64,000 nucleotides of DNA from Phoenix dactylifera. Its lineage: Eukaryota > Streptophyta > Magnoliopsida > Arecales > Arecaceae. Shown piece by piece: positions 18,040 to 23,403 of the stretch. A program made the position numbers and the translations under genes. Below the pieces are notes generated by a model. The model was given only the letters and a program-made list of their open reading frames with translations. It searched no databases and was not told the DNA's origin. The DNA lies in contig NC_052400.1 in NCBI RefSeq assembly GCF_009389715.1, positions 22,165,674-22,229,673 on the forward strand, read 5' to 3'. The stretch's first letter is position 1. The number at the start of each line of letters is the position of its first letter.

Positions 18040-19130
18040 AAGGAAAGCAGTTTAAGCAGAACAGCCTCATGATGGCACTACTAATCTTCAGTTTTTCAGA
18101 AATAAGATACATCATTTTCTTTCGCAATTGATTATTTATTCTTCAAAATTAAGGCTATATACCTAGTAGCATTGTCTCTCCGGACCATTTTTTTTCAGAA
18201 AGCAACCTGGCCTAAAGATCTTATAAGCCCGATGAGATCTTTCTAGCATACAAGCACGCTCTCATAATATTTTAGATATACACGGAACGAAACATGCGAA
18301 TAAAGAAATTTTATCAAACTAACAAAAAAAAGAAAGAAACATGTCCAATAGACTATATCAAGATCATCTTATTCAGCCAATATATGCATTTTGTTTCAGA
18401 GATGAAAGGACAACTATATCATCCGTCACAACAAAGTGCAACGTTAAGTGATGTCCGAATTGTTGATAAAACATGTTAATTTTATGAATGGGATGGTTCT
18501 GCATTGTTTGCCTGGACTCGTCTAAATGCTTAACTTTCGTCTACTCATCAGTATGATGTTAAAGAATCACTGAGTAAGTGACTTTTTTGATGGAATAAAG
18601 AGGAAGTTAAGCAGTGTCATCGGTGACATGCTTAGTGTTGGGCTACTGAAAGATAAGGTCCAGTATCATTGCCCAGAACAAGATCCTAGTCTTTCCCATA
18701 CGGTACGGAGCCCACGAGTTTGATCATGGTCTATCTCCGCGTGTAGGGTACCTACCGGACCGGCCCGGCCCACCTGTTGCAGCCGACGTCGCTAAAATAA
18801 TCCTGCGAGCCTTGCAGCCCGGTCGCGTCGCATCGGGATTCAGGAATATTTCTCCGAGATATTGTACGGCTGGAGTTTAATTTTGGGCGAGAGCGGGATT
18901 GGATCTAACGGCGGAGAGAGTCGCGTCATGGCTAAGAGGGTGGCGTTAGATTGAAGCCCAGGCCCGCACCGTATTTACCTCCCACGCCTCGGTCCTCCTC
19001 TTTCACCTCCTCGCGCCTCTCCTCCCCTCCCCCGGCGCGCTGAGCCCGTGCTCGGAGAGAAGAAAAACCTCCACCCACCCTCGTTGGAATCCTTCGAAGC
19101 CTCCGAGTCTTTGGAGAGGATCAGAAACAA
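18040..19130. other. Intergenic and presumed promoter/leader of the Ran pseudogene
   Basis: AT-rich to about 18660, then GC-rich with a pyrimidine-rich leader (18970-19130) just before the ATG at 19133. No TATA box is evident at a fitting distance. Confidence 0.4.
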
Positions 19131-19941
19131 ATATGGTATTTTCCTGTTCTTCTCTCTTCCACTTCATTCTTTTTCTAGGTTTTAGGAATCTCTCTCTCTC
19201 TCCCCCTCTCAGATCAGGACGAGGGATTTAATCCTTATTATCGCGTGCGTGCCATCTCTTTCCCATGGATTCCTAGGTTTGCTGCCGATCGATGCTCTCT
19301 TCTTCTTCTTCTTGAGTTCTTATATCCTTCGTGTGTGCTGTAGGCGCTTCCGAACCAGAAGACGGTGGATTACCCTAGCTTCAAGCTCCTAATCGTTGGG
19401 GACGGTGGGACAGGTGACCCTTCTTTCTTTCTCTTTCCTTTTTATTTATTTTTCTTTATTTTTTCTTCCTCTACTGTCATCTTTTTTCCATTGATCTATT
19501 TACGCAATAAAACTTCTTTGTCTTGACTCTTTCTTGATCCTTGGTCTATATGGTAATGTTTCTTCACCCCCTCCGCGGTTGATTGATCGGACAAAAAGGA
19601 ATTGTCTTTTTAAGAAGCCCCGTAACCTGCTAATATGCAGCAGGGAAGACTGCCTTCGTCAAGAGGCATCTTACCGGGGAATTTGAGAAGAAATACGAAT
19701 GTAGGTGTATGATATACCAAGAAATATTACTTCTTCTTTATTACTACTAGTACTGTTACTAGTGTTATTATCACTATCGTTTAATTTGGTTGAGTTATTG
19801 GCTTCTCTGAAGCTGCTATTGTTGTTGAAGTCCATCCCTGGGATTTCCACGCCAATTGCAGGAAGATCCGGTTCTGCTGCTGGGATACTGCGGGAGAGGA
19901 GAAGTTTGGTGGGCTAAGGGATGGATATTAGCGAGTCATTG

Positions 19942-19949
19942 CTACTGAT
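19942..19949. repeat. 8-bp target duplication of the hAT element (left)
   Basis: CTACTGAT, repeated exactly at 23396-23403 immediately after the element. Confidence 0.95.
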
Positions 19950-19959
19950 TAGGGCTGTT

Positions 19960-20215
19960 AACGAGCCGAGCCGAGCCCGAGCCTGGGAAAGCTCGGCTCG
20001 GCTCGTTTCACAGTAGCTCGGGCTCGGGCTCGGGCTCGGGCTCGGTAACGAGCTCTGTATTGGGCTCGGGCTCGGGCTCGCTTGGTAAAGCAAAGGCTCG
20101 GGCTCGGGCTCGCTTGTTAAAGCAAAGGCTCGGGCTCGGGCTCGGGCTCGTTTCAATTACGAGCTCCTGAACGAGCCCGAGCTCGGGCTCGGGCTCGGGC
20201 TCGGTACGAGCTCGG
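19960..20215. repeat. Left subterminal GGCTCG repeats of the hAT
   Basis: Arrays of (GGCTCG)n with interspersed AACGAGC units. In hAT elements such motifs bind transposase (family knowledge). The Ser/Pro-repeat frames over them are artefacts. Confidence 0.85.
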
Positions 20216-20825
20216 TGGTCTGTTTCTTGTTTCCTTGAAACAGGCATTCACCATCTGTCACAGAAAATTGAATGACCTTCAGAAGGTTTTTGAGGGAAGT
20301 AGGTGATTTCCATCCTGAGAACCTGAGAAGAGTTGCATAGAACTATTAGATCACTGTATGTGCATTTCTAGTTCATTCAAGTTCATTATACAGCTTTACT
20401 TGCCCCAAATGGCATTGATTCGGAATATTTGATGTGCAAATATTTGCAAATGAACTCATTAACCTCTCATAGTTCTCAGCTGACAGGCATATATTTTGTC
20501 ATTCAGATCATATGATAGTTGAATTTTATTTCTTGGTTTTATCTTCTTGATCACTGAAATTTGCATTTGTTGCTTGTTTAACAGAAACCTCACAACTTGA
20601 AATTGGAAACATAAGTACATTAACTTATTCTGTTGTTACAGATGACAGTACATTATGAATACTAATATTGACTCGACCAGTTTCAGAATGAAGAAAAGAG
20701 GAGCCTCATGATGCTCCTTGCTCACACTAGTAGGCATTGTTGAGGTAGAAATACAAGCCAGCTAGCCCTGCAACTCCAAGCACTATGGCAACAGGTAACG
20801 CTTTCCTGAAAGCACAAGTGTTTCA

Positions 20826-21554
20826 AGAAAGTGCCAGCAAACTTCTCTGCGACGGTCCTAAACAGCTCCAGATCTCCAATTCGCACAGCCTAAGATCAGA
20901 ATATTAAATTATTAGAACAATAATAATATAAACTAGGACAAATGTTGTGCTATTTGAGTGACAATGACAATCTCACATTTGTAAGCTCAAAATAGGGTGT
21001 CAAAGCCTTCTTCATGCCTTTCTGCATAAAAACAGTTTTCTCAGGGATTTCCCCTAGAAGTAAGCGGACTATCACAGCCCACTTGTTGCATTGGATTCGA
21101 AAACCCCATGCTCCAGCAGGAGCTTTTCGAGCAGCTTGCAGAAGGCTTTCTTTGGCATCAGTATATTCCAACTGAATGGTCCTGATCTTTCCTAAGTAGA
21201 ACAGGTAGCGGCAGAACTTTAGGAGAAAAAACCTCAAGGTTAGCATATATATTTGTTTCACAACGAGAATGAAGTCTAAAGGTAATTTCATGGAGTCACA
21301 AGCAAAAGTATTGCCTGCTGATTGGAATGTGCTTCGAAACGTGGGGCCTTTGACCTCAGTTTCTCGGCCTGGTCATACAAGTTATAATGAAGGTAATTGC
21401 GAAGTAGCAGGTTGAGAAGGGTTTCCTGCATCTCACCGGTATAATTAGCAAGTTTCAGCAGATAAATATATCATAAAATATCTCTGTAAAGCAACAAACC
21501 TGACCCAGCTCATCACGCCGTAAGGTGGCCATGCGATGCAAGGCAAGGAGGGGC
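20826..21554 (-). pseudogene. RPN3: Captured fragment of 26S proteasome subunit RPN3 (four exons)
   Basis: Minus-strand exons: 21500-21554 (LLALHRMATLRRDELGQ), 21315-21425 ([20 protein letters not shown], then [17 protein letters not shown]), 20977-21216 (FCRYLFYLGKIRTIQLEYTD to ALTPYFELTN) and about 20826-20889 (AVRIGDLELFRTVAEKFAGT). Together they match the middle of RPN3/PSMD3, the non-ATPase lid subunit of the 26S proteasome. Exons 2 and 3 are exactly in phase (37 and 80 codons) and introns are present, so capture was from genomic DNA. The exon 2 donor is CAG|GCAATA. Both the N-terminal half and the PCI-domain end are absent, so no functional subunit can be made. It lies within the hAT element, antisense to the Ran pseudogene. 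Confidence 0.93.
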
Positions 21555-21951
21555 CTGACAAGACAAGATCACTGTGTGAGAAGAAGCTATAACAATTAAG
21601 AAATTAATATGGCCTGAATCTCCGTTTGGGAGCCCCGCAGACTATAAGAAATTAATTAGAAGTCAGGAAATGCATTCTCTCTCCAATTCTAGCCAATTCA
21701 ATCATGGAAAGAAATGTATAAAGATCATGTTGCTTGCAGTTTACTTTCCTGGATGTATGGAACACCTTCTTATGAAGCAATGAGCTGGTACTTTAAAATG
21801 CCATGGGTTGAAAAGAAGAAGACAGCAGGATACTTAGAGAAAAGATCTGAAACCATGCAACAAGACTGATTGCATGGGAAAGGAATGGAGTGTTAAGATC
21901 AATCAAGGTGAAGCCAAATTGTTACATGGAGAAGAAAAGGATACAACTCAC

Positions 21952-22010
21952 CAGGGCAGAAATACTTATCTGGAAGCTTCTCAAAGGGTGTTCTATCATT
22001 GTATATGTAA
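21952..22010 (-). pseudogene. Captured exon of a rubredoxin-domain protein
   Basis: A 59-bp minus-strand exon between gtgcag and GTGAGT. It reads YIYNDRTPFEKLPDKYFCP and stops within the codon after the first Pro of the second Cys knuckle (phase 1, as expected for CPVCG). This is the rubredoxin fold signature Y-x-Y-x-D...PFE-LPD-Y-CP, as in plant thylakoid rubredoxin-like (ENH1 type) proteins. Only this exon is recognised; its neighbour in the element is RPN3, so two unrelated donor genes are represented. Confidence 0.8.
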
Positions 22011-22169
22011 CTGCACATAATTTAGAAACAAATCACAGTTAAAAGACATCTGAATGCATTAGTACTCAATGCAGTATCAGTAAAATAAAGCTGAGGAGAA
22101 TGGAGAACCTCGGGGCGGCGGCAGGAGCTTGTTGCAGGGGTGACAGCACTCAACAGCATAGAAATAATT

Positions 22170-22335
22170 GATGCTTCAGTGAGCATATGATGTAACAAAA
22201 GATAAAGAGCATATGATGTAACAGTCAAACAGGGACAGCAGCAAAACAAACAAAATAAAACACAAAACTATACCCAGAATTTGTACATAATTCCTTTCCC
22301 AACAAAAGATAAAGAGCATATGATGTAACAAAGGA
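22170..22335. repeat. Repeated 25-bp unit ataaagagcatatgatgtaa
   Basis: The unit aacaaaagataaagagcata-tgatgtaaca occurs at about 22183-22195 (partial), 22193-22222 and 22303-22332 inside the hAT element. Confidence 0.7.
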
Positions 22336-22675
22336 GAAACGCGAACAACAATCCTGCCACCCAAAATAAACCAGCACAAAACATTAAGCAATGCTGTAGC
22401 GTGTAAAGGTATAGACATATATCCTATTTACTCCTGGTTAAAGAAATAAAGAAAGAAAGAGAGTGTAAACTTTATCACCACGCATGCAACAGTAGCAGAC
22501 TACTTGATAAACACAAAAAGATGAGAGCAGGAAAACAAAATATGCAAATGAAACACAATCTAACATCAAGTTCAGCCAAATAACAAGGGTCATCGGTGGG
22601 CTGCAGCATCAGACCGGCCTTCTCCTCAACAAACTAAAAAACATCCCATACAAATCAAGTTCTACAAAAGAGTTC

Positions 22676-22876
22676 AAGAAGGAGGGGTTCGGAGGAGGAG
22701 GGCCGGAGGGGTTCGGAGGAGGAGGAGGGCCGGAGGGGTTCGGTCCGTTCGGAGGAGAAGGAAGGCCGGAGGGGTTCGGAGGAGAAGGAGGGCCGGAGGG
22801 GTTCGGAGGAGAAGTCGAGAAGGAGGGGTTCGGAGGAGAAGCCGAGAAGGAGGGCCGGAGGGGTTCGGCGGCGCGG
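22676..22876. repeat. GC-rich minisatellite in the hAT element
   Basis: About eight imperfect units of ggaggggttcggaggagaag with ggagggccgg linkers. The long Leu/Arg/Pro frame on the minus strand is a product of the repeat. Confidence 0.85.
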
Positions 22877-23224
22877 CGTGCGGGCGAAGGGAGGCGGAGC
22901 GCGGCGGGGCTGGGGCTGGAAGGGGGTCGTCGCCGGAAGGGCTGGGAGGGCTGGGAGTCGAGTGGGAGACAGGGAGAGGCCGAAATCGGGGGAGGGCTGG
23001 GACTTGGGAGAGGCGGCCGAGACTCGAGAGGGAGACGGTCACAGGAGGAGTCGAGGAGACCTGGAGACTAGGGCATGCCATGCATGAGCTGATGAGTGAT
23101 GAGTGGTGGTGATCACGATCTGGGTCGATGGACGGTGGGGGCTGGTCCGGCTGGAGAGTGGGCTGGCCGGGTGGGCCCATGGCCATGGGAGACCAATCAA
23201 TCAGCATTCAGCAAATAGCCAAAG

Positions 23225-23380
23225 GCCCAAGCTCGTTTGGGCTCGTGAGCTGCTCGGGCTCGAGCTCGGGCTCGAGCTCGGATGTAAACGAGCCTCATAT
23301 TAGGCTCGGGCTCGGGCTCGTTTGACTAACGAGCCGAGCCCGAGCCGGGCTTTTACCGAGCCGAGCCCGAGCAGCTCGGC
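23225..23380. repeat. Right subterminal GGCTCG repeats of the hAT
   Basis: Mirror of the left array: gctcgggctcgagctcggg units next to the right terminal inverted repeat. Confidence 0.85.
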
Positions 23381-23403
23381 TCGTTAACAGCCCTACTACT
23401 GAT

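Follow-up and report, generated by a model that had tools for sequence, protein, structure and literature searches.

The window analyzed here, a stretch of 64,000 nucleotides from Phoenix dactylifera (NCBI RefSeq assembly GCF_009389715.1, contig NC_052400.1, positions 22,165,674 to 22,229,673 of the forward strand), contains at positions 19950-23395 a complete insertion of 3446 bp belonging to the hAT superfamily of transposons. Between its terminal inverted repeats (TIRs) lie fragments of four host genes, and the insertion is bounded by an 8-bp target site duplication (TSD). All comparisons were made within the same genome (773 Mb, 2391 contigs), the contigs being cited by handle (C) and individual loci by number (L). 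The features of the locus are listed below in window positions, with the donor or the basis of each assignment in parentheses.

19000..19941, + strand: 5′ exons of the host gene, which encodes a Ran-family GTPase (paralog alignment)
19942..19949, no strand: left copy of the 8-bp TSD, CTACTGAT (flank comparison)
19950..19971, + strand: 22-bp TIR, 3′ end in transposase orientation (self-comparison)
19950..20245, − strand: native hAT 3′ region with subterminal GAGCCCGAGC repeats (sibling comparison)
20246..20829, − strand: captured piece 2, second block, comprising rubredoxin exon 4 (20727-20805), 3′ untranslated region and flank (donor alignment)
20827..21595, − strand: captured piece 4, RPN3/PSMD3 with introns (donor C18:5310385-5311156)
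21500-21554, 21315-21425, 20977-21216 and 20827-20889, − strand: RPN3 exons, the last one cut (donor alignment)
21596..21606, − strand: 11-nucleotide filler TAATTTCTTAA between rubredoxin and RPN3 (filler and flanks together match a 12-mer at a distance of 48 bp)
21604..22148, − strand: captured piece 2, first block, with three internal deletions and introns kept (donor C14, L014)
22100-22148, 21952-22012 and 21608-21641, − strand: part of exon 1, exon 2 and half of exon 3 of the first rubredoxin block (donor alignment)
22149..22183, − strand: tail of piece 1 and native hAT stretch AATTATTTCTATGCTGTT, ending at the rubredoxin insertion point (sibling comparison)
22181..22223, − strand: two back-switch copies of the ARF piece, as 30-bp and 17-bp repeats with 5-bp and 6-bp microhomology (self-comparison)
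22219..22481, − strand: captured piece 3, ARF-like 3′ downstream sequence inside piece 1, with a 4-bp overlap, GTGG (donor C10:3815592-3815854)
22478..22624, − strand: captured piece 1, 147 bp of exon-like and intron-like TMEM115-like sequence (donor C13, L052)
22624..22681, − strand: 58-bp remnant of hAT sequence 3′ of the transposase stop (the transposase gene is missing between this remnant and the 5′ region)
22682..23395, − strand: native hAT 5′ region with subterminal GCTCGGG repeats and a GC-rich leader (largely common to transposase-bearing siblings)
23374..23395, − strand: 22-bp TIR, 5′ end in transposase orientation (self-comparison)
23396..23403, no strand: right copy of the 8-bp TSD, CTACTGAT (flank comparison)

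The two TIRs are each 22 bp long and 100% complementary, and the 8-mers flanking them are identical. A paralog of the Ran-like host gene (L056) aligns uninterrupted across the joined flanks of the element and thus represents the empty site. An earlier note on this DNA, made from the letters alone, had described a structurally complete hAT element with 22-bp repeats and an exact 8-bp duplication, and TIRs, TSD and empty site all bear this out. Next to the insertion the window reads GCGAGT and the paralog GTGAGT, both similar to a splice donor. The two sequences stay nearly alike beyond the exon end, so that the element, just outside the exon, is probably intronic; this similarity speaks against disruption of the Ran exon. 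Five further Ran-like loci, with 73-74% identity, are located on C509, C236 (two), C8 and C1203.

The 8-bp TSD and short TIRs are those of hAT elements, and the BED, RNase-H and dimerisation domains of the corresponding transposase are present in a relative on C103, the window copy itself possessing none of them. Host gene fragments from separate donor loci between TIRs, without a transposase gene in the window element, place it among the Pack-hATs. Pack-MULEs are characterized by long TIRs and a 9-11 bp TSD, neither of which is found here.

The donors of the RPN3, rubredoxin, ARF-like and TMEM115-like pieces lie on C18, C14, C10 and C13, respectively, that is, on four contigs other than that of the window (C9). 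Divergence was counted as substitutions within the true borders of each piece, replacing counts that overran those borders (TMEM 4/163, rubredoxin 25/1167, RPN3 6/772). The RPN3 piece differs from its donor at 5/769 sites; its four exons, joined by eye, encode 158 residues that match PF25573 (TPR_PSMD3_N) at 1.1e-63, in agreement with the four RPN3 exons of the earlier note. The rubredoxin piece differs from the C14 gene at 20/1142 sites. Where the note had seen one rubredoxin exon, parts of four are present on the two sides of RPN3, namely exons 2 and 4 (the latter with its 3′ flank), together with the end of exon 1 and half of exon 3. The C14 donor has four exons which, joined by eye, encode a protein of 166 aa; a C-terminal membrane helix was likewise discerned by eye. 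This protein matched only two rubredoxin-type Pfam models (E up to 0.01; PF00301 at 2.4e-5); ENH1 also has a PDZ domain, and the note's ENH1-like donor has accordingly been dropped. A second candidate, C10:10940861, is 75-84% identical and aligns past the 5′ border, which marks it as a paralog, the donor on C14 being ~97-98% identical.

The ARF-like piece (2/263 sites different) derives from the 263 bp 3′ of the stop codon of a C10 gene whose product has a terminal domain matching PF02309 (AUX_IAA); we take this gene to be an ARF rather than another AUX/IAA-domain protein. The remaining piece is identical to its C13 donor (0/147), which is presumably TMEM115-like; no Pfam match was found for the donor protein. 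At ~1668-5411 of L052 (gene orientation) an insert resembling another transposon interrupts this donor; CAGGGGCGGC marks its edge, and frames similar to those of transposases were recognized in it by eye. The captured TMEM115-like copy in the relative on C796 is without this insert, and therefore the capture either preceded the insert or used an uninterrupted copy.

RPN3 and rubredoxin are thus not neighbors in an ordinary locus, and the note's fragments of unrelated host genes are indeed captured fragments, though of four donors rather than two and in nested layers rather than side by side. Paralogs on C10 and C100 remain alignable with the rubredoxin and RPN3 donors past the borders of the captured pieces, and on C14 there is an ARF paralog whose alignment continues through the captured stretch without a break; the genes are therefore the sources and the element the recipient, the test having covered the rubredoxin, RPN3 and ARF donors.

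Comparison with sister copies reveals how these layers are nested. In C796, where 580 aligned TMEM115-like sites show seven differences, the native hAT sequence ATGCTGTTTCAAGG follows 18 bp further on and is uninterrupted, as it is in C103 and C10b and, with one change, in C1b. In the window, C1 (L012), C16 and C6, rubredoxin occupies exactly that native site and follows the same TMEM tail, which in C16 is reduced to its last few bases. The window and C6 agree in having the ARF piece inside the TMEM piece, in the 5′ border of the ARF piece and in two differences from the donor; the 3′ borders are different. Rubredoxin copies free of RPN3 (C1, C16, C1707 and C2320), like the C14 donor, have 152-153 bp where the window has RPN3; since they keep this stretch, RPN3 replaced 152 bp comprising what remained of rubredoxin exon 3 together with the greater part of the last intron. 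The rubredoxin copies of C8 and C739 diverge from the others within the stretch. The copies consequently form a graded set: C103 is free of cargo, C796 carries TMEM only, C1 and C16 add rubredoxin, C6 adds ARF (with a broken transposase frame), and the window, C3 and C17 add RPN3. By structure, the order of capture would be TMEM, then rubredoxin, then RPN3.

RPN3 with identical borders and filler is found in C3, and its border with rubredoxin also in C17, where RPN3 is cut by a deletion. Four differences from the donor are common to the window and C3, one is confined to the window and two to C3. These three copies have distinct TSDs (CTACTGAT, CTCCTTTC and CCTACATT) and different internal deletions, for which the simplest reading would be one capture of RPN3 followed by further transpositions.

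A total of 13 junctions was analyzed, one of which (TMEM to the hAT 3′ end) was measured in C796. Nine have overlaps (2, 4, 5, 6, 3, 2, 8, 6 and 3 bp) and four have fillers (3, 2, 4 and 11 nucleotides). Microhomology of at least 2 bp (range 2-8 bp) at 9/13 junctions compares with 2.2 expected from random breakpoints in the same parent sequences (20,000 draws; P = 5e-5, the floor). The summed overlap was 39 bp against 9.2 expected (P = 1e-4) and, for the 10 capture or switch borders only, 25 bp against 7.1 (P = 5e-5). The 11-nucleotide filler beside RPN3 is templated: together with its flanks it duplicates a 12-mer found 48 bp upstream. Within the ARF piece the copying went back on itself twice, which produced the 30-bp and 17-bp repeats.

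The TIR pattern of the family, TAGGGCTGTYAAYRAGCCGAGC, has 388 exact matches in the genome (192 + 196, both window ends counted), against 0 for a backward-read control; a minority of these ends was examined in detail. Among 36 sibling or donor loci scanned, 18 have paired TIRs and an exact 8-bp TSD (including one low-complexity case, CCCCCCCC), one has a TSD with one mismatch, one with three mismatches, and 16, six of them gene loci, yielded no TIR pair. Longer or further fetches added exact-TSD elements in C6, C485 and C103; C796 has paired ends with flanks that differ at 3/8. Three locus pairs (L018/L019, L034/L035 and L036/L037) share one TSD each, have lengths within 2 bp, and are probably unmerged duplicate contigs, so that the 21 exact sibling loci represent at most 18 distinct insertions. 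The related copies do have the same TIRs, a point on which the note's reading hung: in 22/22 paired loci whose TSD is exact or has one mismatch, both ends show 0-2 differences from the window 22-mer, a result that is partly circular, the pairs having been picked at ≤4 mismatches in 18.

The C103 element (L051; 4293 bp, exact TSD GTTCCAAT) is a transposase-bearing relative with the same kind of ends, relevant to the autonomous hAT that the note had contemplated. Its open frame of 690 codons matches PF02892 (BED, 8.6e-6), PF14372 (RNase-H, 4.6e-32) and PF05699 (dimerisation, 3.3e-29), and none of six donor sequences searched for in it was found. Three cargo-bearing relatives have transposase frames that are long but damaged, with a frame break in C6, one TAG in C485 and a shorter frame in C796; in C6 the broken frame is retained alongside TMEM, ARF and rubredoxin pieces. 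The transposase reads along the window minus strand, and the cargo, which the note had considered antisense, is sense to the family transposase and antisense only to the Ran-like host gene. Such an orientation is not the rule, as the C18 gene pieces in C485 are antisense (judged from a 438-residue frame).

Siblings with other cargo, also foreseen in the note, are represented by C796, with TMEM only, and by C485 (L046). The latter, whose transposase has one stop, carries four pieces of a C18 gene, with 376 bp from C17 replacing 61 bp. Given identities of 93-96% (C18) and 95% (C17), the real donors may have been related loci. Because C485 has this second patchwork, nested replacement is probably not unique to the window lineage.

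Three other observations concern the family. Many TIR pairs among the matches listed are ~435-512 bp apart, a short form resembling miniature inverted-repeat transposable elements. A second group of hAT transposases, at 41-47% identity, has many open frames of ~600-660 codons. Finally, L013 (C8:23850893-23859642) is an 8.75-kb structure with family ends, flanks that differ at 3/8, a rubredoxin piece and long internal repeats, and is probably a composite.

From the established anatomy, donors, nesting, shared junctions, TSDs and junction overlaps we infer repair synthesis as the agent of capture, together with its timing and excision as the cause of the break. We consider it probable that the window element is a non-autonomous Pack-type hAT which acquired its cargo stepwise by microhomology-guided template switching during repair. 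The ancestor would have been a transposase-bearing element that received copies of host DNA in four steps, all of them in the stretch from the transposase stop codon to the subterminal repeats of the 3′ side. The copies comprised a piece of the TMEM115-like gene; ~1.64 kb of the rubredoxin gene, 18 bp beyond that piece; ARF-like 3′ sequence within the TMEM115-like piece; and RPN3, of which 769 bp took the place of 152 bp inside the rubredoxin gene. During repair of a break inside the element, for instance gap repair after excision, the growing strand would switch through microhomology to an ectopic gene and back. The transposase gene would have been lost through internal deletion and the chimera then moved in trans, reaching different TSDs in the window, C3 and C17. 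At rates of 6.5e-9 and 1.3e-8 substitutions per site per year, the RPN3 piece would be about 0.25-0.5 million years old and the rubredoxin piece about 0.7-1.4 million years, ages that are rough because divergence is uneven across pieces and copies.

Several observations weigh against this account. The TMEM piece, structurally the first, shows 0/147 differences (C6 0/168, C16 0/106) against 20/1142 for rubredoxin, at which rate 2-3 differences would be expected in its 147 sites, and the ARF piece differs more in C6 (4/121) than in the window (2/263). Divergence is thus not clock-like, which means that the dates cannot be trusted or that the rubredoxin piece came from an allele not quite identical with the C14 gene. 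Structure does not fix the order of ARF and RPN3. The key intermediate, C796, is without a matching TSD, and because each of the three cargo-bearing transposase copies examined has at least one lesion, capture by an active autonomous copy is only inferred. With respect to the junctions, 4/13 have fillers and no overlap, the anchors were picked by eye, and 3/13 are plain internal deletions. A first test, on 18 junctions including C6 and C485, gave a mean of 2.2 against 0.72 bp (P = 0.0035); it was weaker partly because the C485 and C6 donors are diverged and one anchor matched the wrong place, and the 13-junction version omits the four borders from C485 and the one from C6 whose anchor was misplaced.

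The alternative closest to repair after excision is fork stalling and template switching or microhomology-mediated break-induced replication (FoSTeS/MMBIR) without excision, or repair of a random break, to which we would give perhaps one chance in three. The serial back-switches of the ARF copy, with 5-bp and 6-bp microhomology, and the templated filler fit either process, and a related model has been put forward for multicopy animal Pack-TIRs (PMC8277862). The sequence does not separate the two; that a mobile family captured repeatedly makes excision a natural source of breaks, which is an argument only.

Fusion of neighbors, in which two family insertions flank host DNA and move as one by their outer ends, has been advanced to explain Pack elements in several superfamilies, among them hAT (PMC8903248), and the 8.75-kb C8 structure demonstrates that long paired-end structures exist in this family. 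For the window element it is improbable. The four donors lie on four separate contigs, the cargo is not chromosomal DNA between two family insertions, and RPN3 replaced 152 bp of an earlier piece instead of extending the array. Only 1/6 fetched donor loci has a TIR-like 18-mer (≤5 mismatches), ~2.3 kb from the captured stretch, and the only other such 18-mer in the element (4 mismatches) is in the subterminal repeats, not beside cargo. Separate later insertions of retrogenes or other transposons into an ordinary hAT are very improbable, for while nested insertions are common in plant genomes, the pieces here retain introns and have borders with microhomology and replacement, and the borders inspected are without poly(A), target duplication or foreign terminal repeats.

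Beyond stepwise template switching, we tentatively put forward that the interval between the transposase stop and the 3′ end may serve as a standing cargo bay to which transposase-encoding copies repeatedly add host DNA through template switching at microhomology, each round able to overwrite part of the last. At the window locus the transcript of the Ran-like gene would also include, in antisense, 0.77 kb of RPN3 with 99% identity to the donor gene. If true, the self-moving element itself, and not only its defective derivatives, would be a gene shuffler.

How cut-and-paste transposons acquire host genes is debated, the competing models being fusion of neighboring insertions and repair-linked template switching, and the excerpted text of a 2026 review (PMC13317346) still allows for an undiscovered capture mechanism. 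With intermediates, donors, replaced sequence and junctions readable in one genome having 388 ends, the two models become directly testable, in a case where four capture sources are layered in a single hAT element. The note's view that multigene capture by hAT elements is far less described than that by other superfamilies is fair, and gene capture in the hAT superfamily has been called rare (PMC3260210); hAT capture itself is nevertheless in print (PMC3260210, PMC2528002, PMC8903248). In the open-licence PMC literature, as represented by the portions of text available, no hAT element was found whose history of nested capture from four donors had been resolved at the level of its junctions.

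In maize and rice, Pack-hAT elements have been reported which, like the window element, are non-autonomous and possess TIRs, an 8-bp TSD and host gene fragments; the model given there is fusion of neighboring insertions, and in maize a Pack-PIF cluster was shown to have gained two gene fragments stepwise (Gisby and Catoni 2022, PMC8903248). Unlike that model, as set out in the sections available, the present element exhibits piece-in-piece replacement, borders with microhomology and filler, and a transposase-bearing relative with part of the cargo. Maize Ds2 (two) and Ds-l4 (nine) elements also have internal hAT DNA replaced by filler that includes intron-bearing gene fragments, but with a single fragment per element and one compound element, and no ordered nested series in the excerpted account (Du et al. 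2011, PMC3260210). The grapevine hAT family Hatvine-6 likewise combines a shared transposase and TIRs with a variable region matching genic introns and exons, whereas the part of the paper available describes neither a layered history nor junction analysis (Benjak et al. 2008, PMC2528002). Animal Pack-TIRs such as hAT-N8_XT resemble the window element in gap filling with template switching and a median microhomology of 2 bp; according to the excerpt they are nearly all single copy (four multicopy, 1.4%), while here four layered sources have moved to new TSDs (PMC8277862). Pack-hATs as such are therefore already known, and what is new is a layered case, resolved to its junctions, with cargo in transposase-bearing relatives.

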